A stretch of DNA of 64,000 bases from a virus. The notes under the pieces were generated by a model. That model had not been told where the DNA came from and did not search any database. It saw only the letters and a list, made by a program, of their open reading frames with translations. This document shows positions 3,158-47,806 of the stretch, piece after piece. The first letter of the stretch is position 1; every line of letters starts with the position of its first letter. The stretch spans positions 1 through 64,000 of the IMG/VR virus record IMGVR_UViG_3300025133_000063. The stretch is one strand, 5' to 3'. The position numbers were made by a program, and so were the translations under genes.

Positions 3158-4369
3158 GTGGAATTTGTAATATCAAAAAATATTCTTGGAACCAAAAAAG
3201 ACTTCATTATACAAGATGATACATTTACTGTAACTTCTGAGTACACTGATGAATGGGCTGTCGACGGCTGCAGTACATTAAAGAGTTTAGATGTGGTTTC
3301 CATCATAAACAAACGCAGTGCCCCTGTGATTACAAGCGAGATACACGCAAATGCATACTCCCAATTAGGCGTAAACAAAATCAACTGGGTTCATGCCTTA
3401 GGTTTAAATCATTTCAAAAGATTCGTAGATACGGCTCGTGAGTATGCAGAAAAGGAGCAAAGTTTTATAAAAGAAAACAACTACTATTCTGATGAATTCT
3501 TAACAGGTCGGTCAGTTCTCTTTGATCTAGAGGATTATTCAATAGACACGCTTGCACTAAGAAATCATATAAAAAACACAGATGTCAGAAATCTAAAACT
3601 TCTCAACGAGTTCAGAAGACAAGAAAAAATAAAATATACACAAACTGCAAGTGTAACAGGAAGACTATCTGTAAAATCAGGACCAAACATTCTTCATCTA
3701 AAGAGAGAGCACAGAGATATACTTAAATCAAAGCACGGATCAGACGGAGCAATAATACAGCTGGACTTTAAGTCACTAGAACCAAGAATCTTAGCACTCG
3801 TAAAACAGGACAATGTACCTGACGATCTTTACACTGATATATCTGATATGTGTAATAACAGCATAGATCGTGAGCTAGCAAAGAAAGCAACTCTTGCAAT
3901 CATATACGGAATGTCAAGAGGTAACTTAAACAATCTCATCAGGGTGAACAATTCAGACGAGATATTCAACCACATATCAGACTACTTTGGGATCAGAAAT
4001 CTACATGATGCACTTGTGAACTCTATTGATGACAACGGCGTCATTCAAAATTTATACGGGCGTAACATCTATACGAGTGCCAACAATGATCATCTTTTTG
4101 TAAACTACTTCACGCAGTCAACAGGAGTAGATGTCTCACTGTTAGGATTCAGACAAATAATCGACAACATAAAAAAAGAAGAACTAACAATAAGCCCGCT
4201 TTTCGTATTACACGATGCACTAATTCTTGATGTACATAAAAATAGTATAAAACAGTTGAAAAATATAACAAAAGATGGTATAATAATACCAGGGTTTAAA
4301 CAAAACAGATTTCCGCTCGATTTGAGCTTATTTTACAAAAGGACAAAAAATGACACAGCACCTACATGA
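3158..4369 (+). CDS. polA: Short family A DNA polymerase (PolA palm/fingers)
   Basis: Template-directed DNA synthesis. Motif A is LDFKSLEPRIL at about 202-212 (Pol I DYSQIELR), the fingers helix is RELAKKATLAIIYG at about 237-250, and motif C is LHDALIL at about 350. Both catalytic Asp are present. The Glu after the second Asp in Pol I (HDE) is Ala here. The residue equivalent to Pol I Phe762 is Leu, the Leu762 type known from virioplankton polymerases. At 403 aa it is far shorter than Pol I (928) or T7 polymerase (704) and has no recognisable 3'-5' exonuclease domain. The GTG start has no Shine-Dalgarno and lies 5 nt after a TATAAT (3147-3152), so the mRNA could be nearly leaderless. It overlaps the HD gene by 20 bp. 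A second, family C polymerase lies at 20956. Confidence 0.88.
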   Translation: MEFVISKNILGTKKDFIIQDDTFTVTSEYTDEWAVDGCSTLKSLDVVSIINKRSAPVITSEIHANAYSQLGVNKINWVHALGLNHFKRFVDTAREYAEKEQSFIKENNYYSDEFLTGRSVLFDLEDYSIDTLALRNHIKNTDVRNLKLLNEFRRQEKIKYTQTASVTGRLSVKSGPNILHLKREHRDILKSKHGSDGAIIQLDFKSLEPRILALVKQDNVPDDLYTDISDMCNNSIDRELAKKATLAIIYGMSRGNLNNLIRVNNSDEIFNHISDYFGIRNLHDALVNSIDDNGVIQNLYGRNIYTSANNDHLFVNYFTQSTGVDVSLLGFRQIIDNIKKEELTISPLFVLHDALILDVHKNSIKQLKNITKDGIIIPGFKQNRFPLDLSLFYKRTKNDTAPT

Positions 4370-20887: not shown

Positions 20888-20918
20888 TTGTGAAAATACG
20901 TCATATACATGATATAAT
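20888..20918 (+). promoter_or_regulatory. Sigma70-type promoter upstream of dnaE
   Basis: TTGTGA at 20888-20893 and TATAAT at 20913-20918, spacer 19 nt, followed by ATAAACAT. The same architecture and flanks recur at 44762 and 38083, so this is a repeated phage promoter rather than a chance match. Confidence 0.7.
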
Positions 20919-20955: not shown

Positions 20956-23900
20956 ATGGATATTAAGCCAGTCAAATTTGTAGGTCTTCATTCTCATTCG
21001 GGTTTTTCTACTTTCGATGGAATGGATCTACCTCAAAAGCATATTGATTTTGTTCGTTCAAATGGTATGAATGCCTGGGCGTTAACAGATCATGGTAACA
21101 TGAATGGTTATTGTCATGCGTACTTACATATGCAAAAAATTAATGCAGAAGATCCAGAGAATCAATTTAAGTTTATTCCTGGTTGTGAAATGTATGTTCA
21201 TCCAGATCTTGATGTTTGGAAACTTGATTACGAAATTCAACGTGCTATCAAGGCAAATGACGAAGAAAAACGCTTGCAATTAGTTTCTCAACGAGCCGAG
21301 ATTGCTGGTCCAGTTTTCGAAATTCAACGTGAGCATAAACAAGAACATGAAGTAAATGATGAAGATGCTTCAATGACTGTTGAAAATGAAGATGAAACAA
21401 AGTCATCAAAATTTTATAATCCGATTAAGCGCCGTCATCATATGGTTGTTTTACCCAAGACATCTGTCGGTCTTAAGAGACTTTTTGGACTTGTTTCAAA
21501 AGGCTATCTTGAAGGCTTTTATCGTTTTCCTCGTGTAGATTATAAAATGATAAAGGAAGCTGCCAAAGGTGGTCATATTATTGTGACATCTGCTTGTATT
21601 GGCGGCCCGTTGGCATATGAAATATTTAAACACTTTCAAGGTGTTGAATTTGAAGATTTAAAACCAGAGCTTTTAGATGATAGCGACGTTTTTAAGCGGG
21701 TGCTTCATAGTGTTGGTCTTGGATATTCTGCAATAGCAAATACTGTTGGTGAGGAAAATTTTTATCTTGAGCTACAATTTAATAAGTTAAACGCACAACA
21801 CTTAGTCAACCGCGTTCTTTTGGCATTTGCTGAACAGGAGGGTTTACAGAGTAAGCTAATTGTTACTACTGATTCTCATTATTCTCAACCAGAATTATGG
21901 CGTGAAAGAGAATTATATAAGAAGCTTGGGTGGCTAAATTATAAGGACTTTGATCCGGATAAATTGCCAAAATCAAAAGATGAACTTAAGTGTGAATTGT
22001 TTCCAAAAAATGCACAACAAGTTTGGAATACTTATCTTGACACAAAACAAACCCGATCTTTTTATAATGATCAAATTATTTGTGATGCAATTGAAAGAAC
22101 ATATGATATTGCACATGATGTAATTCAAGATATTAGGCCAGACACAACGATGAAGTTGCCATCGTATGTTTGTCCAGAGGGTAAAACAGACAATCAGGCG
22201 TTATTGGAATTATGCGTTAAAGGTCTTCATAGAAAAGGTTTGCTTAAAGATAAAGAATATGTCGATCGCCTAAAGTATGAATTAAAGGTAATTGCTGATA
22301 AGGATTTTTCTCGTTATTTCTTGACAATGTTTGCAGTTGTAGAAGTGGCTCGAAGAAAGATGACTGTTGGGGCCGGCCGTGGATCTGCTGCCGGTTCATT
22401 AGTTGCGTTTGTTCTTCGATTAACAAATATTGATCCACTAAAGTATGATTTAATGTTTGAGCGGTTTTTGAATCCGTCACGTAAAGGAGCACCAGATATC
22501 GATACTGACATTGCTGATCGTGATCTTCTGATAACAATGCTTAAAGAAGAATTTGGCGACTTAAATGTTATTCCAATTTCCAACTATAATACATTTAAAT
22601 TGAAGAGCTTGGTTAAAGATGTATCTCGTTTTTATGGAATCGACTACTCTGAGGTTAACGCTTCGTTAAAGACAGTTGAGAATGATGTTAAACGAAAGGT
22701 TATGAATCGAGGGCAAGATAAAAACCTGTTTGTACTAAAGTATTCTGACGCTATAAAACATAGTCCAACATTCAAAAAGTTTATCGATAAATATCCAGAT
22801 GTTGGTCAATCTATTGAAGGTTTGTTTCAGCAAAATAAAGCTCTTGGTAGACATGCTGGTGGTGTTATTGTCGCGGAAGATATTCCGGAACAAATGCCTG
22901 TTATTATGGCCCGTGGCGAGCCACAGACTCCTTGGGTCGAAGGTATGCAATATAAACATCTTGAAAGCTTTGGGTGGATCAAGCTTGATCTACTTGGTCT
23001 TGAGACACTCCGATTAATTGAACGAACTGCTGAATTGATCCTCAGGCGTCATCATGGAATTGAAAACCCGACATTTCCAGAAATTAGAGACTGGATTGAA
23101 GAAAATTTAGATCCAAGTATTCTTGATCTTGACGATCAAAAAGTATACAAGTATGTTTATGAAGACGGTCACTTTGCTGGTGTGTTTCAATTAACTTCTG
23201 GCGGTGCACAAAAATTGTTTAAAAAAGCAAAACCAAAGAGCATTATTGATATTGCAACATTGACATCAATTTATAGACCAGGTCCTTTAAGTGCAAAAGT
23301 TGATAAATTGTACGTTGAGGCAAAAAATAATCCTGAAGATATCGACTATGGTCATCCGCTAATAGAAAGCGTGTTAAAAGAAACATATGGTCTAATAGTA
23401 TTTCAGGAATCTATTATGAAATTATGCAGTGTTGTAGGTGGTTTTCCAGAAAAGGAAACCGATTCAATACGTCGTAATATTATGAAAAGAACCGGTGCAA
23501 AACAAGCCGAGACTTTGGCCGCGGCCGTCGCTGCTAAGAAAAGTTTCGTTGCTGGTGCCATGAAAAATGGTGTTGATAGACAATTGGCTGATGATCTTTA
23601 TGAAAAGGTCTTGTTCTTCTCTGGTTATGGCTTTAATAAGAGCCATGCGGTGTCATATGCCGTTGATTCATATCAATGTGCATGGTTACATACCTATTAT
23701 GAAGAAGAGTGGCTCTGCGCCTATCTTGAAGCTATGTCAAGTAATGATAAGAAGCGTGCCCGGGCTTTTGCCGACGTTAAAAAAATGGGATATACAATTG
23801 TTCCCTTAGACATAAATTACGCTGAGAAAACGTGGACAATTTTGCCAGGTAAAAAGTTTATGCCTTCGTTTTTATCGTGTAAAGGAATTGGTGAAGCCGC

Positions 23901-24615
23901 TATTGATGAGCTAATTAAAATTAGAAAAACAGCAGGAGCACCATTTAACACTATACAAGATATGCTTTGGAATGAAGATGGTGAATGGAGATTTTCAAAG
24001 TTTAATAAACGAGCTATAGAGGGATTAATATCTATTAAGGCATTTGCTTCGATGGACGTAGTTGGGCAAGATAAAACTTTTGCATCATACAAGCATATGC
24101 ATAATGTCTTGGTTGAAAATAATACACTCATTAAACGCCGCTTAAAGTCAAAGCCAAAAATTGGTCAACAAAATTTTCAAGAGTTATGTCAAGCAAAAAT
24201 GCTTATTGACGATGCCGATTCTATAACCCAACACGAATGGGACGAATGGACTCCTCGCGAAGTTGCTGAGCGTAGTGTTAAGTGTCTCGGATCATTTTCT
24301 GCACAACAACTACTTGATAGTAGTGAAATTGAATTTTTGGAAAAATCAGGTTATACACCTCTAGATGAAGTAAAAAAGAAAAGTAAATACTGGTTTATTG
24401 TTTGTGATACCGTGCCTAAGCTTACAAAGAATGGAAAACCTTATCTTATCGTCACGGCTACAGGCCTTTCCGGAGCTCGTCATCGAATGTTTTGCTGGGG
24501 TTGGAATGGTAGACAAAAAATAGAACCATATTCATTATGTGTTTCAAAGGTTGGTCCAAGTGATTTTGGGCTACAAACCTCAATGCGCGATTTTGAAAAT
24601 TTAAGTGAACAATAG
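20956..24615 (+). CDS. dnaE: DNA polymerase III alpha subunit (family C replicative polymerase)
   Basis: Full-length DnaE of 1,219 aa. The N-terminal PHP domain begins FVGLHSHSGFSTFDG (metal His) and continues ALTDHGNMNG; LIVTTDSHYSQPE near 295 belongs to it. The palm has GAGRGSAAGSLVAFVLR near 476-492 and the catalytic pair in GAPDIDTDI near 514-522. The third region is AGVFQLTSGGAQKL, and the fingers include GFNKSHAVSYAVDSY. The tail after about 1,000 is diverged. It is unusual beside a family A polymerase at 3158 in one genome. It has its own promoter and is followed by the nucleotide-modification genes. Confidence 0.93.
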   Translation: MDIKPVKFVGLHSHSGFSTFDGMDLPQKHIDFVRSNGMNAWALTDHGNMNGYCHAYLHMQKINAEDPENQFKFIPGCEMYVHPDLDVWKLDYEIQRAIKANDEEKRLQLVSQRAEIAGPVFEIQREHKQEHEVNDEDASMTVENEDETKSSKFYNPIKRRHHMVVLPKTSVGLKRLFGLVSKGYLEGFYRFPRVDYKMIKEAAKGGHIIVTSACIGGPLAYEIFKHFQGVEFEDLKPELLDDSDVFKRVLHSVGLGYSAIANTVGEENFYLELQFNKLNAQHLVNRVLLAFAEQEGLQSKLIVTTDSHYSQPELWRERELYKKLGWLNYKDFDPDKLPKSKDELKCELFPKNAQQVWNTYLDTKQTRSFYNDQIICDAIERTYDIAHDVIQDIRPDTTMKLPSYVCPEGKTDNQALLELCVKGLHRKGLLKDKEYVDRLKYELKVIADKDFSRYFLTMFAVVEVARRKMTVGAGRGSAAGSLVAFVLRLTNIDPLKYDLMFERFLNPSRKGAPDIDTDIADRDLLITMLKEEFGDLNVIPISNYNTFKLKSLVKDVSRFYGIDYSEVNASLKTVENDVKRKVMNRGQDKNLFVLKYSDAIKHSPTFKKFIDKYPDVGQSIEGLFQQNKALGRHAGGVIVAEDIPEQMPVIMARGEPQTPWVEGMQYKHLESFGWIKLDLLGLETLRLIERTAELILRRHHGIENPTFPEIRDWIEENLDPSILDLDDQKVYKYVYEDGHFAGVFQLTSGGAQKLFKKAKPKSIIDIATLTSIYRPGPLSAKVDKLYVEAKNNPEDIDYGHPLIESVLKETYGLIVFQESIMKLCSVVGGFPEKETDSIRRNIMKRTGAKQAETLAAAVAAKKSFVAGAMKNGVDRQLADDLYEKVLFFSGYGFNKSHAVSYAVDSYQCAWLHTYYEEEWLCAYLEAMSSNDKKRARAFADVKKMGYTIVPLDINYAEKTWTILPGKKFMPSFLSCKGIGEAAIDELIKIRKTAGAPFNTIQDMLWNEDGEWRFSKFNKRAIEGLISIKAFASMDVVGQDKTFASYKHMHNVLVENNTLIKRRLKSKPKIGQQNFQELCQAKMLIDDADSITQHEWDEWTPREVAERSVKCLGSFSAQQLLDSSEIEFLEKSGYTPLDEVKKKSKYWFIVCDTVPKLTKNGKPYLIVTATGLSGARHRMFCWGWNGRQKIEPYSLCVSKVGPSDFGLQTSMRDFENLSEQ

Positions 24616-38082: not shown

Positions 38083-38113
38083 ATGTGAAGATCCTTCTAT
38101 TATGTGTTATAAT
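38083..38113 (+). promoter_or_regulatory. Sigma70-type promoter before the ligase-like gene
   Basis: ATGTGA at 38083-38088 and TATAAT at 38108-38113, spacer 19 nt, then ATATCTATAAA. Same spacing as the promoters at 20888 and 44762. Confidence 0.65.
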
Positions 38114-38154: not shown

Positions 38155-39411
38155 ATGGGAGGAAATGCTAAGCATATGCAGCATATTTGGGAACGTTACG
38201 ACGCAACGTTTTCTGATGTATTTAAGCTGCTTAATGATTTAACAACTGGATCGATTCAGGTAACTGAAAAATTTGATGGTGCAAATATTCACTTTCGAGT
38301 TGATAATGCTGGTACAGTTAAGTTTTCTAGAAATAAGGCTACGCTTACATCTGGTGGTTTTACGTTTCAAGATGCATTAACAATTTATCAAAATCATCCT
38401 GCAAGAGATTTGTTTGTCGAAGGTTGCCGCGTTTATGACGAGGTGTATACCGATAAGTGGTGGCCTTTCGGATATTCCGGCCGTGATTGGATTAATGCAG
38501 AAATTGTTTTTAAGGCACAGCCACAGTTGCTAAATTATTCTGAGAGTGCAATTGTATTACATCAGGTTGCAACATTTTTACCAAGCGGTGAGAAGTTTAT
38601 TGACCATGAAAAACAAGCTAAAATTGCTAACTTAACTGAAGCATCTCAATTTACTAGTAATACCGGTCATACATGGAAATTATTTGGCCCACAAGTTATA
38701 GAATTAACGAATGATTCTGGCACTGGATATTTAACTGAAGCGATAAGTAGGTTACGGCAATGCATGTACGCAGCTGGTCTTAGTGAACATAATACATTAC
38801 AAGATTTTCTACGTCATTCTATTTATGAAGGATTTGTGTCAAAAATTAGAACATCCCAACACGTTAAGTCAAAGCTTGCTGATAAAATTAGTGGTGTAGA
38901 TACATCTATTAGACTAGTTGATTTAAAACGTAATCAACCACCTGGAGTTATTAAGCAGATTAGTGAATATGGCCAGCGTAAAAATGAAGCTAAGTTACAA
39001 AAAGCTGCCATGCGCCCAATTATTAGTACATTGGACACCTTTGCGTCTGCTCGTCTTTCAAATGTAACCTCGGTACTAATCGATGATCCTATTTTTGAAC
39101 GTAATAGAATTATGCGAGAAATTACAGAGCTTGGTGTACTTGTTGATACATACCAAGATGCGTTTTCTGTAGAAAGAAAAGCCTTATTCAACGACTTGTT
39201 CAATGAATGGAACACCGTTGAAAGGCGCCCAGCTGCTATTGAAGGTGTTACATTTAACTTTCTTGGTACAACGACAAAAATAACAGGTGGCTTCGCAAGC
39301 TTAAACCAACTTCTTGGCTTAAGGAAATATGGACGAGGTAAAATTCCAGGTATGATAGAGCCAAGCTCTAAGCAAAATATTAACTTAACTGACTTTTTTG
39401 CGCTGGAGTGA
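38155..39411 (+). CDS. Nucleotidyltransferase/RNA-ligase-like protein
   Basis: 418 aa. VTEKFDGANIHFRVD near 36-50 matches motif I (KxDG) of ATP-grasp-independent nucleic acid ligases, with Lys39 as the likely adenylated residue. RDWINAEIVF near 118-127 fits motif III/IIIa and YEGFVSKIR near 222-230 motif IV. The C-terminal 90 residues are a separate conserved-looking block (GVTFNFLGTTTKITGG, LLGLRKYGRGKIPG). RNA or DNA end-joining or repair is the natural role; the exact substrate is unknown. It has its own promoter and AGGAGAGA Shine-Dalgarno. Confidence 0.65.
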   Translation: MGGNAKHMQHIWERYDATFSDVFKLLNDLTTGSIQVTEKFDGANIHFRVDNAGTVKFSRNKATLTSGGFTFQDALTIYQNHPARDLFVEGCRVYDEVYTDKWWPFGYSGRDWINAEIVFKAQPQLLNYSESAIVLHQVATFLPSGEKFIDHEKQAKIANLTEASQFTSNTGHTWKLFGPQVIELTNDSGTGYLTEAISRLRQCMYAAGLSEHNTLQDFLRHSIYEGFVSKIRTSQHVKSKLADKISGVDTSIRLVDLKRNQPPGVIKQISEYGQRKNEAKLQKAAMRPIISTLDTFASARLSNVTSVLIDDPIFERNRIMREITELGVLVDTYQDAFSVERKALFNDLFNEWNTVERRPAAIEGVTFNFLGTTTKITGGFASLNQLLGLRKYGRGKIPGMIEPSSKQNINLTDFFALE

Positions 39412-43168: not shown

Positions 43169-44749
43169 ATGGACGTTGCCGCTAAAGAAGTTATATTTAA
43201 GGACGATTCACAGGAAAAATTGGCCAAAGGTGTTAATGTGCTTGCGGACGCAGTCCGTGTTACAATGGGCCCGGGTGGAGAAAATGTAATTATAGAAACT
43301 GAATCCGGTCCACCAATTTTAACGAAAGATGGTGTCACAGTTGCTAAAGCAATTGCTCTTTCGCTTCCATTTCAAAACATGGGTGTTCAGGCCGTTAAAG
43401 AAGCCGCGGCTAAAACTGCCGAAACGGCCGGCGATGGTACTACCACTGCAACTGTTTTAACTCAAGTACTTGTTAATAAAGGTCAAAAGCTTGTCGCTGC
43501 CGGTCATAATCCAGTAAAAATTAGAAAAGGTATTAAACTTGCAACAGCTGAGATTCTTAAAGAATTAAAAGAAAACTCATACCCTGTTGAAAGCGATGAT
43601 GAAATTATAAATGTTGGTGCAATTTCTGCGAATGGTGATAAGCAAATAGGTGTATTCCTTGCTGAGGCTATGTCTCATGTTGGTAGAGATGGCGTGATTA
43701 CCGTTGATGAAGCCCGAGGGTTTGATACCACACTCGAAATCGTAGATGGTTTTGAGTTAAACAGGGGATTTATATCACCATATTTTATTACCAATCAAGG
43801 CCGTGGTGTTGTTGAGTTTGATAACCCAAAGATTCTTTTAGCGAATAGACGAATATCAGCCGTTCAGGACTTAGTGCCGTTGTTAGAATCTGTCCGTCGC
43901 CAATCGGAAAATTTGCTTATTATTGCAGACGACGTCGATGGCGACGCACTCAAGGTTTGTGTTCTAAACAACTTAAAGTCAATTATCAAAATTTGTGTAA
44001 TTCGATCTCCTGGATTTGGAAATATGCGTGCTGAATCACTAAATGACTTGTCACTTCTATTTGATACAAAAGTATATACTCAAGGCGAAAATCTACCAGC
44101 AGACGTTTCAGAACTTGGTACATGTGAGAAGTTTACAAGTTATCGAAATTCGTCAATTTTTGTTGGCACGTCAACTAATAGTACAGATCAGATTGTCAAT
44201 CGACTCGACGCTGTAATAGAAATGTCAAACAATCCTGGAATTACACCACAGGAACATCAATACTTACAACGCCGGCAGGCTGTGCTAAGTGGTGGAATAG
44301 CAGTAATTAGAGTTGGTGGTTCAACTGATTTAGAGCTTCGAGAAAGAAAAGATAGAATTGACGATGCAGTTTGTGCCACCAGGGCAGCAGCAAGAAGCGG
44401 AATTGTTGAAGGTGGTGGTTTTGCATTAATTAGGGCAAGTAATAAAGTTGCTAAGCTTGATAATACTATCCTTGATAAGGATGTTCTGGCTGGTTGGAAT
44501 CTTCTATTATCAGCTGTGTCCGCACCAGCCCAGCAAATTGTTTCTAATGCTGGATATGTTCCTGAAATTATAATGGCAAAATTACTTGAAGATCCAACCA
44601 TTGGTTTTAATTCTAGAACGGGCGAATGGGTAAACCTTAGAGAGACAGGCGTAATCGATCCACTTCTTGTAGTAGAATCAGCACTAATTCATGCCTCATC
44701 TGCAGCAATGAACTTGTTATCAGTTGGTTGTGCAATTGCAAATGAATAA
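43169..44749 (+). CDS. groL: GroEL-like chaperonin (HSP60)
   Basis: 526 aa. VRVTMGPGGENVIIE near 29-43 and AETAGDGTTTATVLTQ near 82-97 are the ATP-site motifs; DDAVCATRAAARSGIVEGGG near 395-414 carries the Asp for ATP hydrolysis. The apical domain is full length. The C-terminus ends VGCAIANE without the GGM repeats of bacterial GroEL. No GroES was recognised. Phage chaperonins of this type are known from large phages and fold capsid or other phage proteins, some without a co-chaperonin. Confidence 0.93.
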   Translation: MDVAAKEVIFKDDSQEKLAKGVNVLADAVRVTMGPGGENVIIETESGPPILTKDGVTVAKAIALSLPFQNMGVQAVKEAAAKTAETAGDGTTTATVLTQVLVNKGQKLVAAGHNPVKIRKGIKLATAEILKELKENSYPVESDDEIINVGAISANGDKQIGVFLAEAMSHVGRDGVITVDEARGFDTTLEIVDGFELNRGFISPYFITNQGRGVVEFDNPKILLANRRISAVQDLVPLLESVRRQSENLLIIADDVDGDALKVCVLNNLKSIIKICVIRSPGFGNMRAESLNDLSLLFDTKVYTQGENLPADVSELGTCEKFTSYRNSSIFVGTSTNSTDQIVNRLDAVIEMSNNPGITPQEHQYLQRRQAVLSGGIAVIRVGGSTDLELRERKDRIDDAVCATRAAARSGIVEGGGFALIRASNKVAKLDNTILDKDVLAGWNLLLSAVSAPAQQIVSNAGYVPEIIMAKLLEDPTIGFNSRTGEWVNLRETGVIDPLLVVESALIHASSAAMNLLSVGCAIANE

Positions 44750-44761
44750 AAGTGAATGAAA

Positions 44762-44792
44762 TTGTGAAAGTTTCCTTTACATGTGGTATAAT
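44762..44792 (+). promoter_or_regulatory. Sigma70-type promoter before the sigma-factor operon
   Basis: TTGTGA at 44762-44767, 19-nt spacer, TATAAT at 44787-44792, followed by ATAAACAT exactly as at the dnaE promoter. Drives the 44823 gene and the split sigma pair. Confidence 0.7.
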
Positions 44793-44822: not shown

Positions 44823-45014
44823 ATGTCTAAAGAGTTAACTGTTGATATGACTACATATGTAGAAATACAACGACTACGAAAACGAATAAGAATATTGTTA
44901 CAACTAATAAAAGACGGAAATTTGTCAAAGGAGAAAGAACTTGAATTGCAGTTAGAACATTGTTATTTACAACGTGAATTAGAAATTTTTGAAAAGGATT
45001 ATAGAAAAAAATGA
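44823..45014 (+). CDS. Small coiled-coil protein, 63 aa
   Basis: Two charged helices (IQRLRKRIRILLQLIKDG; KEKELELQLEHCYLQREL) forming a likely helical hairpin. Overlaps the sigma gene by 4 nt (ATGA), so translation is coupled; an anti-sigma or sigma-binding role is possible but unsupported by homology. Confidence 0.5.
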   Translation: MSKELTVDMTTYVEIQRLRKRIRILLQLIKDGNLSKEKELELQLEHCYLQRELEIFEKDYRKK

Positions 45015-45778
45015 ATTTAGACGCTTTCTTTAAAGAAGTAGGTCAACACAAATTGTTGACAAGAGAACAAGAGGTACAATTGGCACAAGCTATTGAGGGT
45101 GGTGATAAACTAGCTCGTGATAGAATGATTCAAAGCAATTTGCGCTTAGCCATTAGTATTGCAAAGCAGTATAATAAAAGTGGTTGTGCACTTGAAGATT
45201 TGATTCAAGAATCAACTGTTGGGTTGATGGAGGCTGTCGATCGATTTGATTGGCGTCGAGGCTTTAAGTTTTCCACCTATGCATGTTGGTGGATTAAACA
45301 GGCTGTGCGTAAGCATGTAACATCTCATTCATCAATGATTCGTCTACCTAATCATGCTAGAACAGTTTTGTGGCAAGCAGGACAGCTTAAGAAAGACTAC
45401 GTTAAATCTTTTGGTAAGGAGCCAACATTAGACGAGATCGCAGAGGCCCTTGGTCTTCCAACTAAATCTTTACGCTCATTATATCAAAGCGCTGGTACAA
45501 TGATGTCTTTAGATGCAACAGTTGGCTCAAAGGATGAGGGATCTCGAAAACTATATGAAGTGATTCCAGATGAAGGTGCAACAATTGTTGAAAAAATGGT
45601 TCGTCAAGATACACAAGATGTTATTCGTAAAGCGCTGGTGTCTTTATCTGCTCGCGAAGAAAAAGTTATTAGGCTTCGTTTTGGTATAACGGCCGATAGA
45701 AATGATTCAGATAATTTCCCAATTACTCAAAATGAGCTCAAAGAGCTTGAAGGAAGAATTAAAAATGCCAATGCCTAA
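45011..45778 (+). CDS. Sigma70-family factor lacking region 4.2
   Basis: 255 aa. Region 1.2 (LLTREQEVQLAQAIEGGD near 15-32), complete region 2 (LRLAISIAKQY; FKFSTYACWWIKQAVRK near 86-102), region 3 (GKEPTLDEIAEALGLP near 136-151) and region 4.1 (LSAREEKVIRLRFGI near 215-229) are present. After that the protein ends in about 26 unrelated residues instead of the region 4.2 helix-turn-helix. The overlapping next gene encodes an HTH of that type. It can bind core polymerase and melt -10 DNA; -35 recognition must come from elsewhere. Confidence 0.88.
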   Translation: MNLDAFFKEVGQHKLLTREQEVQLAQAIEGGDKLARDRMIQSNLRLAISIAKQYNKSGCALEDLIQESTVGLMEAVDRFDWRRGFKFSTYACWWIKQAVRKHVTSHSSMIRLPNHARTVLWQAGQLKKDYVKSFGKEPTLDEIAEALGLPTKSLRSLYQSAGTMMSLDATVGSKDEGSRKLYEVIPDEGATIVEKMVRQDTQDVIRKALVSLSAREEKVIRLRFGITADRNDSDNFPITQNELKELEGRIKNANA

Positions 45779-46043
45779 AGGATATACTAGTAAATTTGGT
45801 TATGCTTCAGTAGCATCAGATGATGATTGTTTGACCTACCGTGAAATCGCAGAAATTATGACCGCTGATGGTGATAAGATTAATCACAGTACTGCACGTA
45901 ACATTTTTCTTCGTGCAATGCGTAAAATTGCAAGCGAAGTTACATCGAGTTATGCAGTTGAAGATAGCTGTAATAGCAATGACATTGCGGAGGATCCACG
46001 GTTTCAGGCAGCAATTCAAGAGTTGGCAACTGAATTTTTGTAA
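45765..46043 (+). CDS. Small HTH protein resembling sigma region 4.2
   Basis: 92 aa from the ATG at 45765, overlapping the sigma stop by 14 nt in another frame. LTYREIAEIMTADGDKINHS near 24-43, then STARNIFLRAMRKIASEV near 43-60, has the helix-turn-helix spacing of sigma 4.2 and an acidic C-terminus. With the preceding gene it would rebuild a whole sigma factor from two chains, analogous in logic to T4 gp55 plus gp33. It is not a simple frameshift: it starts with its own conserved-looking segment (MPMPKGYTSKFGYASV). Confidence 0.62.
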   Translation: MPMPKGYTSKFGYASVASDDDCLTYREIAEIMTADGDKINHSTARNIFLRAMRKIASEVTSSYAVEDSCNSNDIAEDPRFQAAIQELATEFL

Positions 46044-46070: not shown

Positions 46071-46367
46071 ATGTCAATTTCATGGAATTTTTACGTTAAA
46101 CGTCGAAAGATAAATGTTGAAGAATTTGTTAGATCTAAAAAATGTAAGACTTATAATGAGTTTTGTAATGCCCTCAATCAGCATGATGTAATACCACCGC
46201 TTGAAAAAGAAGTGTCAGCGTATTTTGTTAAGTCTCCGCCCAAACCTCGGGTCCGGCCACCACAAAAAGCAAAACCATTAAAGAAGCCTTCGCCTAAAGA
46301 GCAGGTTAAAGATAGTGAATCTAAGCCTGAGCCTAAAGTGAAAAAAAGTTCAAAAAGCGCAACATAA
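46071..46367 (+). CDS. Small basic Pro/Lys-rich protein
   Basis: 98 aa. Compact N-terminal domain (WNFYVKRRKINVEEFVRSK, TYNEFCNALNQHDVIPP) then a disordered Pro/Lys tail (PPQKAKPLKKPSPKE). Possible small DNA- or polymerase-binding protein next to the sigma genes. Shine-Dalgarno AAGGAG. Confidence 0.5.
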   Translation: MSISWNFYVKRRKINVEEFVRSKKCKTYNEFCNALNQHDVIPPLEKEVSAYFVKSPPKPRVRPPQKAKPLKKPSPKEQVKDSESKPEPKVKKSSKSAT

Positions 46368-47203: not shown

Positions 47204-47806
47204 ATGGCTTTTCGGAAAATTTTAAAATTTCCACATCAAGATTTATTAAAAAAGTCAGAATTGGTTTGTGATATAGATGACTCAATCGTTGCACTAATCA
47301 ATGATTTACGTGATACAGTTAATGTCGCTGGTGGGGTTGGATTATCTGCTCCACAGGTTGGTGTATTAAAACGAGTTATATATGTCGCATGTGATACTTT
47401 TTCTGATATATTAATAAATCCTGTTATTAAAGAAACCTATGATTTTGCTGGTGTACAAGAACAATGCCTTTCATTTCCAGGTGTATCAGAAATAGTTCCA
47501 AGATATTCTAGAATTACAGTAGAATATATAGATGAATTAGGTCAAAGTCAAATCTCAGATTTTGATGGTCTTGTATCACAAGTAATCCAACATGAAATTG
47601 ATCATTTAGATGGAAGGCTTATTATCCATCATCTTAGTAGATTAAAGCAGAGGATGATAAGAAAACGTGTCGAAAAGGTAAAGAATAAGGTAAAAAAAAT
47701 ATTGAAATCTTCAGATAATTCTAACATAGGTCGTAGTAAAAAAAATAATCATTTAAGTAGAAAAGAAGTAAAATTGCGTCGTAAACGCCGTAAACAAAGT
47801 CTTTAA
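47204..47806 (+). CDS. def: Peptide deformylase with basic C-terminal extension
   Basis: Removes the formyl group from nascent N-terminal Met. All three motifs are present: GGVGLSAPQVG near 44-54, EQCLSFPG near 86-93 (metal Cys) and QHEIDHLDG near 127-135 (metal His/His, catalytic Glu). Phage deformylases are usually short; this one has about 55 extra residues packed with Lys/Arg (RKRVEKVKNKVKKILKSS; RKEVKLRRKRRKQ). In bacteria the C-terminal helix of deformylase docks on the ribosome, so the tail may strengthen that contact. Confidence 0.92.
   Translation: MAFRKILKFPHQDLLKKSELVCDIDDSIVALINDLRDTVNVAGGVGLSAPQVGVLKRVIYVACDTFSDILINPVIKETYDFAGVQEQCLSFPGVSEIVPRYSRITVEYIDELGQSQISDFDGLVSQVIQHEIDHLDGRLIIHHLSRLKQRMIRKRVEKVKNKVKKILKSSDNSNIGRSKKNNHLSRKEVKLRRKRRKQSL

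Follow-up and report, generated by a model that had tools for sequence, protein, structure and literature searches.

A split sigma factor and an associated promoter class in many uncultured phages of aquatic origin

Background

Domain 4 of sigma factors is normally one compact domain that ties RNA polymerase to the -35 box. In the phage SPO1, two phage proteins, gp33 and gp34, are both needed for late transcription. The latter is an indispensable sigma factor (PMC9429907). In Bacillus subtilis a sigma factor is made of two proteins, RsoA providing domain 2 and SigO domain 4 (PMC10028694). The T4 protein gp33 occupies the polymerase flap though it is structurally unrelated to sigma region 4, and it does not bind DNA on its own (PMC7892883). 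A survey of jumbo phages reports HTH-only and RpoD-like sigma factors, with gp33 orthologues in one phage group (PMC7824862); the part of its text considered here contains no description of a split pair. More generally, no description of either this split of a sigma or a GTGnAA promoter box was found in the open-access papers searched.

Here we analyse a stretch of viral DNA of 64,000 nucleotides (IMG/VR record IMGVR_UViG_3300025133_000063, positions 1 to 64,000), hereafter the window, in which a sigma gene ending after region 4.1 is followed by an overlapping gene for a small protein with a predicted helix-turn-helix (HTH). Such split sigmas are shared by a large group of aquatic phages that are uncultured. 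We put the probability that the two proteins form a two-subunit sigma factor, whose small HTH subunit reads a new -35 box, at roughly 0.7. The features of the locus are summarized in Table 1.

Table 1. Features of the sigma locus and related promoters in the window
Feature	Position	Strand	Basis
Predicted promoter of the GTGnAA class, before the gene (20956) for DNA polymerase III alpha	20889..20918	+	Pattern; also before the G021 orthologue (L451)
Predicted promoter of the GTGnAA class, upstream of ORF 38155-39411	38084..38113	+	Pattern; also before the G004 orthologue (L443)
Predicted sigma-operon promoter, TGTGAA-N18-TATAAT (GTGAAA-N17-TATAAT), extended -10 TGgTATAAT	44763..44792	+	Pattern search
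63-aa ORF, first gene of the sigma operon	44823..45014	+	Similar ORF after the same promoter in G021 (L449, by eye)
Sigma subunit: regions 1.2, 2, 3 and 4.1, without 4.2	45011..45778	+	Pfam, PDB alignments, relatives
Region 4.1 (residues 208-225), last canonical sigma segment	45632..45685	+	Sigma70_r4 positions 1-18; EExxxRLRFG nearly invariant in relatives
Sigma C-terminal tail (residues 231-255), where region 4.2 would be	45701..45775	+	Alignment of relatives
Shine-Dalgarno AAGGAAG of the small gene, within the sigma gene	45750..45756	+	Shine-Dalgarno count in relatives
Small HTH protein of 92 aa, proposed to read the -35 box as partner of the sigma; core KxNHSTARN conserved	45765..46043	+	Relatives, AlphaFold2
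Predicted HTH, helices at residues 25-34 and 41-62	45837..45950	+	AlphaFold2, pLDDT >90
Third cassette gene, 98 aa, N-terminal domain and Lys/Pro-rich tail	46071..46367	+	Gene order in loci

The sigma gene and the small HTH gene

The sigma gene encodes a protein of 255 amino acids. Pfam models place region 1.2 at residues 3-33 (Sigma70_r1_2, E = 4e-10), region 2 at residues 39-107 (r2, E = 2e-20) and region 3 at residues 131-188 (r3, E = 2e-7), all above the curated cut-offs, which makes it a member of the Sigma-70 family. The Sigma70_r4 model matches only with its positions 1-18 of 50, corresponding to region 4.1, and a complete region 4 with the HTH of region 4.2 is absent from the chain, as judged by Sigma70_r4 and by the tails in all relatives. 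Alignments with sigma chains in the PDB stop near residue 230 or carry on weakly, and the last 25 or so residues are not region 4.2. In the relatives, the tail after the RLRFG motif measures 6-36 residues, with a median of 25 (census of small-protein loci). The first-pass annotation had described a sigma that comprises regions 1.2-4.1 and ends after 4.1 with unrelated residues, a description that the Pfam and PDB alignments confirm.

The small gene starts at an ATG (45765) in the +1 frame relative to the sigma gene, which it overlaps by 14 nucleotides. Among the relatives, a Shine-Dalgarno 4-mer precedes the small gene in 71 of 81, in comparison with 12 of 81 at a control position. A longer ORF from 45702, given for this gene by a mechanical listing, is unsupported by the alignment of relatives. 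The AlphaFold2 model of the protein, made with 87 relatives (mean pLDDT 80), consists of a disordered N terminus, an HTH and two C-terminal helices; that the next, overlapping gene encodes a small HTH protein in another frame, as had been claimed, is thus borne out at the level of structure prediction.

Conservation of the gene pair

A search of viral contigs with the sigma as query returned 41 loci, and all of their sigmas end after region 4.1 except L041, which is partial, and L040, a full-length outgroup. The small gene adjoins every sigma of this search that ends at 4.1 (all sigma-first loci with full coverage). A separate search with the small-protein family matched 253 contigs (best 80 per query), and bacterial genome contigs were searched as well. 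Among the matches listed in these searches, a truncated sigma lies upstream on the same strand of 121 out of 121 distinct small proteins; 82 of these abut or overlap the sigma gene, 38 are separated from it by about one small gene, and one (L124) is fused to it. The relative frame of the two genes varies between loci, indicating that there is no common frameshift signal. A frameshift, or a single joined gene in relatives, had been named at the outset as what would undermine the split; both were looked for, and the frames vary while the genes are joined only in L124. The two genes are an adjacent, separately translated pair, and the split sigma is real and conserved far beyond chance.

In a tree of the sigma proteins, 36 viral-type split sigmas cluster together, and the split L123 and the fused L124 form a separate pair (SH-aLRT 98); their deeper placement is unsure, given the long branches. 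The small protein has no match among the 50,697 phage records of INPHARED, and no cultured phage carrying it was found there.

Promoters of the split-sigma phages

The split-sigma phages have a common promoter class, GTGnAA, 17-18 nucleotides and (TGn)TATAAT, with a -35 box other than TTGACA. In the split-sigma loci, the intergenic TGnTATAAT sites that lie upstream of genes share the -35-like box cGTGnAAA, and the positional profile has T in 80%, G in 70% and A in 90% of sites at core positions. Among 103 TGnTATAAT sites, GTGnAA stands 17 nucleotides before TATAAT at 22 and 18 nucleotides before it at 5, while each other spacing occurs 0-1 times; there are none in controls. Where TATAAT lacks the TGn, the corresponding counts are 21 at 17 nucleotides, 16 at 18 nucleotides and 0-8 at other spacings. 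For whole records we used the strict pattern GTGNAAN{13,15}TGNTATAAT, which has 46 matches in the 18 split-sigma records (3.86 Mb), spread over 13 of them and absent from the other 5, versus 2 matches of the reversed pattern, and no match in 12 control phage records (2.92 Mb). The class is specific to the split-sigma phages. A relaxed pattern occurs at most 1.2 kb upstream of the sigma gene in 42 of 82 loci.

In the window itself, TGTGAAN{16,20}TATAAT occurs three times against 0.28 expected, always in intergenic DNA on the + strand (Table 1). In the relatives G004 and G021 the GTGnAA class precedes evident orthologues (L451, L443, L449, L442 and L450; orthology by eye). Two of these, L442 and L450, correspond to the window ORF 41095, where the site of the class is weaker. 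The variable base n has no clear relation to the residues of the recognition helix, most peptides having 1-3 sites. A scan of the whole collection with one exact promoter variant was not relied on: 52 of 123 sites among the matches listed lie inside ORFs and many are chance sites, though the module is present in about nine contigs among these matches, far above the base rate. In the same scan, L329, a 13.8-kb viral contig, has four exact GTGTAAA-N13-TGnTATAAT sites and no sigma cassette in its stretch (among the matches listed); it is possibly a fragment of a split-sigma phage.

The first-pass annotation had proposed that the split lets the phage switch between -10-only and -35-dependent promoters. 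This finds no support, since the promoters found carry the -35-like box and the -10, often an extended -10, together. Two separate proteins leave room for such a switch, although the data do not need it.

The main rival to a two-subunit sigma is that these are early promoters of the host sigma-70, with the split sigma serving some other class; even then the small protein may replace region 4.2. We consider this unlikely. The sigma operon, whose own transcription has to be started by something, has a promoter of the GTGnAA class in front of it, and TGnTATAAT is a good extended -10 for sigma-70. GTGAAA also agrees with TTGACA at 4 of 6 bases, yet promoters of the form TTGACA-N16-18-TATAAT are not enriched in the split-sigma records (6 versus 4 reversed). 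Nor does the strict pattern show enrichment in about 146 Mb of bacterial DNA, from 56 genomes of the class of G013 (5 matches versus 13 reversed), or in the control phages, and the box is identical across divergent phages that presumably have different hosts. As extended -10 promoters can be used by the host sigma without a -35 element, the small protein is linked to GTGnAA by association: both belong to the same phages, the spacing is fixed as expected for a flap reader, and the sigma chain offers no other candidate.

The small protein and region 4.2

The similarity of the small protein to models of sigma region 4 is weak (Pfam r4_2, E = 0.085; PHROG 1190 sigma, E = 0.0023). It has no significant match to Pfam families, neither it nor the family profile has a meaningful sequence match in the PDB, and a Foldseek search of the PDB with the model of the small protein alone gave no match. 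An hhalign comparison of the family with 22 region 4 sequences aligned them in the right register with a score of 21, not clearly above the 19.9 that the highest-scoring of 20 shuffled controls reached. Purely for modelling, the window pair was also read as one artificial chain via a four-letter word, using an alignment with partly paired rows. The resulting model has a mean pLDDT of 89 and a pTM of 0.58, a value at which the interface and the placement of domains are not fixed. In the PDB it is matched best by chains of sigma A and sigma S, over 315-350 alignment columns. The sigma part by itself would fill fewer columns, and the HTH is therefore probably aligned to region 4.2.

A natural fusion is provided by L124, a single ORF of 357 amino acids in which the small-protein domain directly follows region 4.1, on a contig binned as a Flavobacteriales MAG; it argues that the two parts work together. 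Further candidates retrieved with the L124 fusion as query looked like generic sigmas and were set aside. The label "4.2-like" that the protein had been given draws on its position, its predicted HTH and the fused relative; by sequence the protein is no demonstrable homologue of region 4.2. That it takes the place of region 4.2 is thus better supported than that it descends from it.

With homology to region 4.2 unproven by sequence, the small protein could instead be a separate regulator, such as a co-activator, a flap-binding factor or an anti-sigma in the manner of T4 gp33 or AsiA, while the truncated sigma acts alone on extended -10 promoters. This we regard as improbable, and more so than the use of host sigma-70. 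T4 gp33 sits on the flap in spite of being unrelated to region 4 (PMC7892883), and the gene that intervenes between the pair in 38 of 121 cases (among the matches listed) would be compatible with independent roles; the strict co-occurrence and the L124 fusion, on the other hand, speak for a joint function, and the -35-like box, conserved and at a fixed distance, calls for a flap reader, which the sigma lacks. Finally, although the window ORFs overlap in different frames, a sequencing error, a frameshift or a decaying pseudogene has practically no chance of explaining the split and is already refuted by its presence in more than 100 distinct contigs with varying frames, own Shine-Dalgarno sites, conserved proteins and no truncated sigma that has its own 4.2.

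Cassette neighbours and other genes of the window

The third cassette gene follows the small gene in 109 of the 118 loci with enough downstream DNA. The gene, which apparently also occurs behind the fused gene of L124, encodes a WxFYxxRR...PP domain and belongs to no known family; neither its product nor the small protein has significant similarity to T4 gp33. In L088, L100, L102, L109, L115 and L118 an extra small gene separates the sigma from the HTH gene, and the intervening genes of this subset are of at least two unrelated kinds, one of them membrane-like.

By eye, the sigma cassette of the window is flanked by a GroEL-like gene (43169-44749) and a peptide deformylase-like gene (47204-47806); a deformylase-like ORF lies downstream of the cassette in L023 and L025 as well. 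The window also encodes a family A DNA polymerase domain (3158-4369) and a bacterial-type DNA polymerase III alpha subunit (20956-24615). Between 50378 and 62933, about a dozen ORFs have in common a short, near-identical peptide at the N terminus (MKITKRQLRRIIRE or MNLLREYIRELLxE) and continue with domains that are unrelated. The peptides are reminiscent of the capsid-targeting sequences of T4, with an L/IxE cleavage site, and the proteins may be packaged internal head proteins.

Proposed mechanism and significance

In each of the 18 split-sigma records there is a single Sigma70_r2 gene, and a gene for RNAP beta is absent, so that the polymerase of the host is presumably used. In the mechanism we propose for a two-subunit sigma, the larger protein (regions 1.2-4.1) would bind the host core enzyme, melt the -10 and read the extended -10 (TGnTATAAT), and it ends at 4.1, the segment expected to lie on the beta flap. 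The small HTH protein, translated from its own ribosome start in the overlapping gene, would substitute for region 4.2, docking on 4.1 and the flap and reading GTGnAA(A) 17-18 nucleotides upstream of TATAAT instead of TTGACA. Together, they would redirect the host polymerase to a range of conserved phage genes, among them the DNA polymerase III alpha gene and those of their own operon. Complex formation, docking on the flap, the reading of GTGnAA by the HTH protein and autoregulation are all inferred. With slightly less confidence than in the two-subunit sigma itself, we favour the fuller view that the pair represents a previously undescribed bipartite sigma class, split inside domain 4, with a small HTH specificity subunit that reads GTGnAA and defines a regulon conserved throughout this large group of uncultured phages.

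If this is true, a natural break between 4.1 and 4.2 in more than 100 divergent phages would mean that -35 reading can be assigned to a detachable subunit. Two small proteins and one short promoter motif would offer an experimental system for studying the exchange of promoter specificity and its possible regulation apart from core binding, and the promoter signature could be used for regulon prediction in phages that have never been cultured.

Comparison with known systems

The RpoD/RpoS-like sigmas of cultured phages (Kyanoviridae, Ackermannviridae and Vibrio phages) are related to the window sigma and resemble it in regions 2-4.1, but carry region 4.2 within the same chain. In those examined (Kyanoviridae MA01, Vibrio phages GR28A and 2.275.O and Bacillus phage BM15), an HTH-like segment stands at the 4.2 position of the same chain (by eye). 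The sigma of BM15, a member of the Herelleviridae, retains its HTH-like end, and SPO1 gp33/gp34 are likened to the present pair by description only.

The first-pass annotation had compared the locus with the division of tasks between T4 gp55 and gp33. The T4 system of gp55, gp33 and gp45 does share with it a phage sigma without a -35-reading part, an additional small protein with a possible seat on the flap, and the use of host polymerase. However, gp55 is a minimal region-2 sigma, unlike the window sigma, and T4 promoters have a -10-like element only. Kinship is unsupported and we retain the comparison as an analogy: gp33 is unlike region 4, and in 13 split-sigma records, which may be incomplete, the gp33 family PF16805 gave nothing above the cut-off (T4 alone passes; two records have weak sub-threshold matches) and the gp45 clamp PF02916 gave no match (T4 only).

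SigO-RsoA is the nearest established precedent. There, too, a sigma consists of two separate proteins, both of which are needed at the target promoter, a feature proposed for the present pair. The split-sigma phages differ in that regions 1.2-4.1 lie in one protein, the break falls inside domain 4 and the genes are phage-encoded; they also differ in having a small-protein family without known relatives and a different -35 box.
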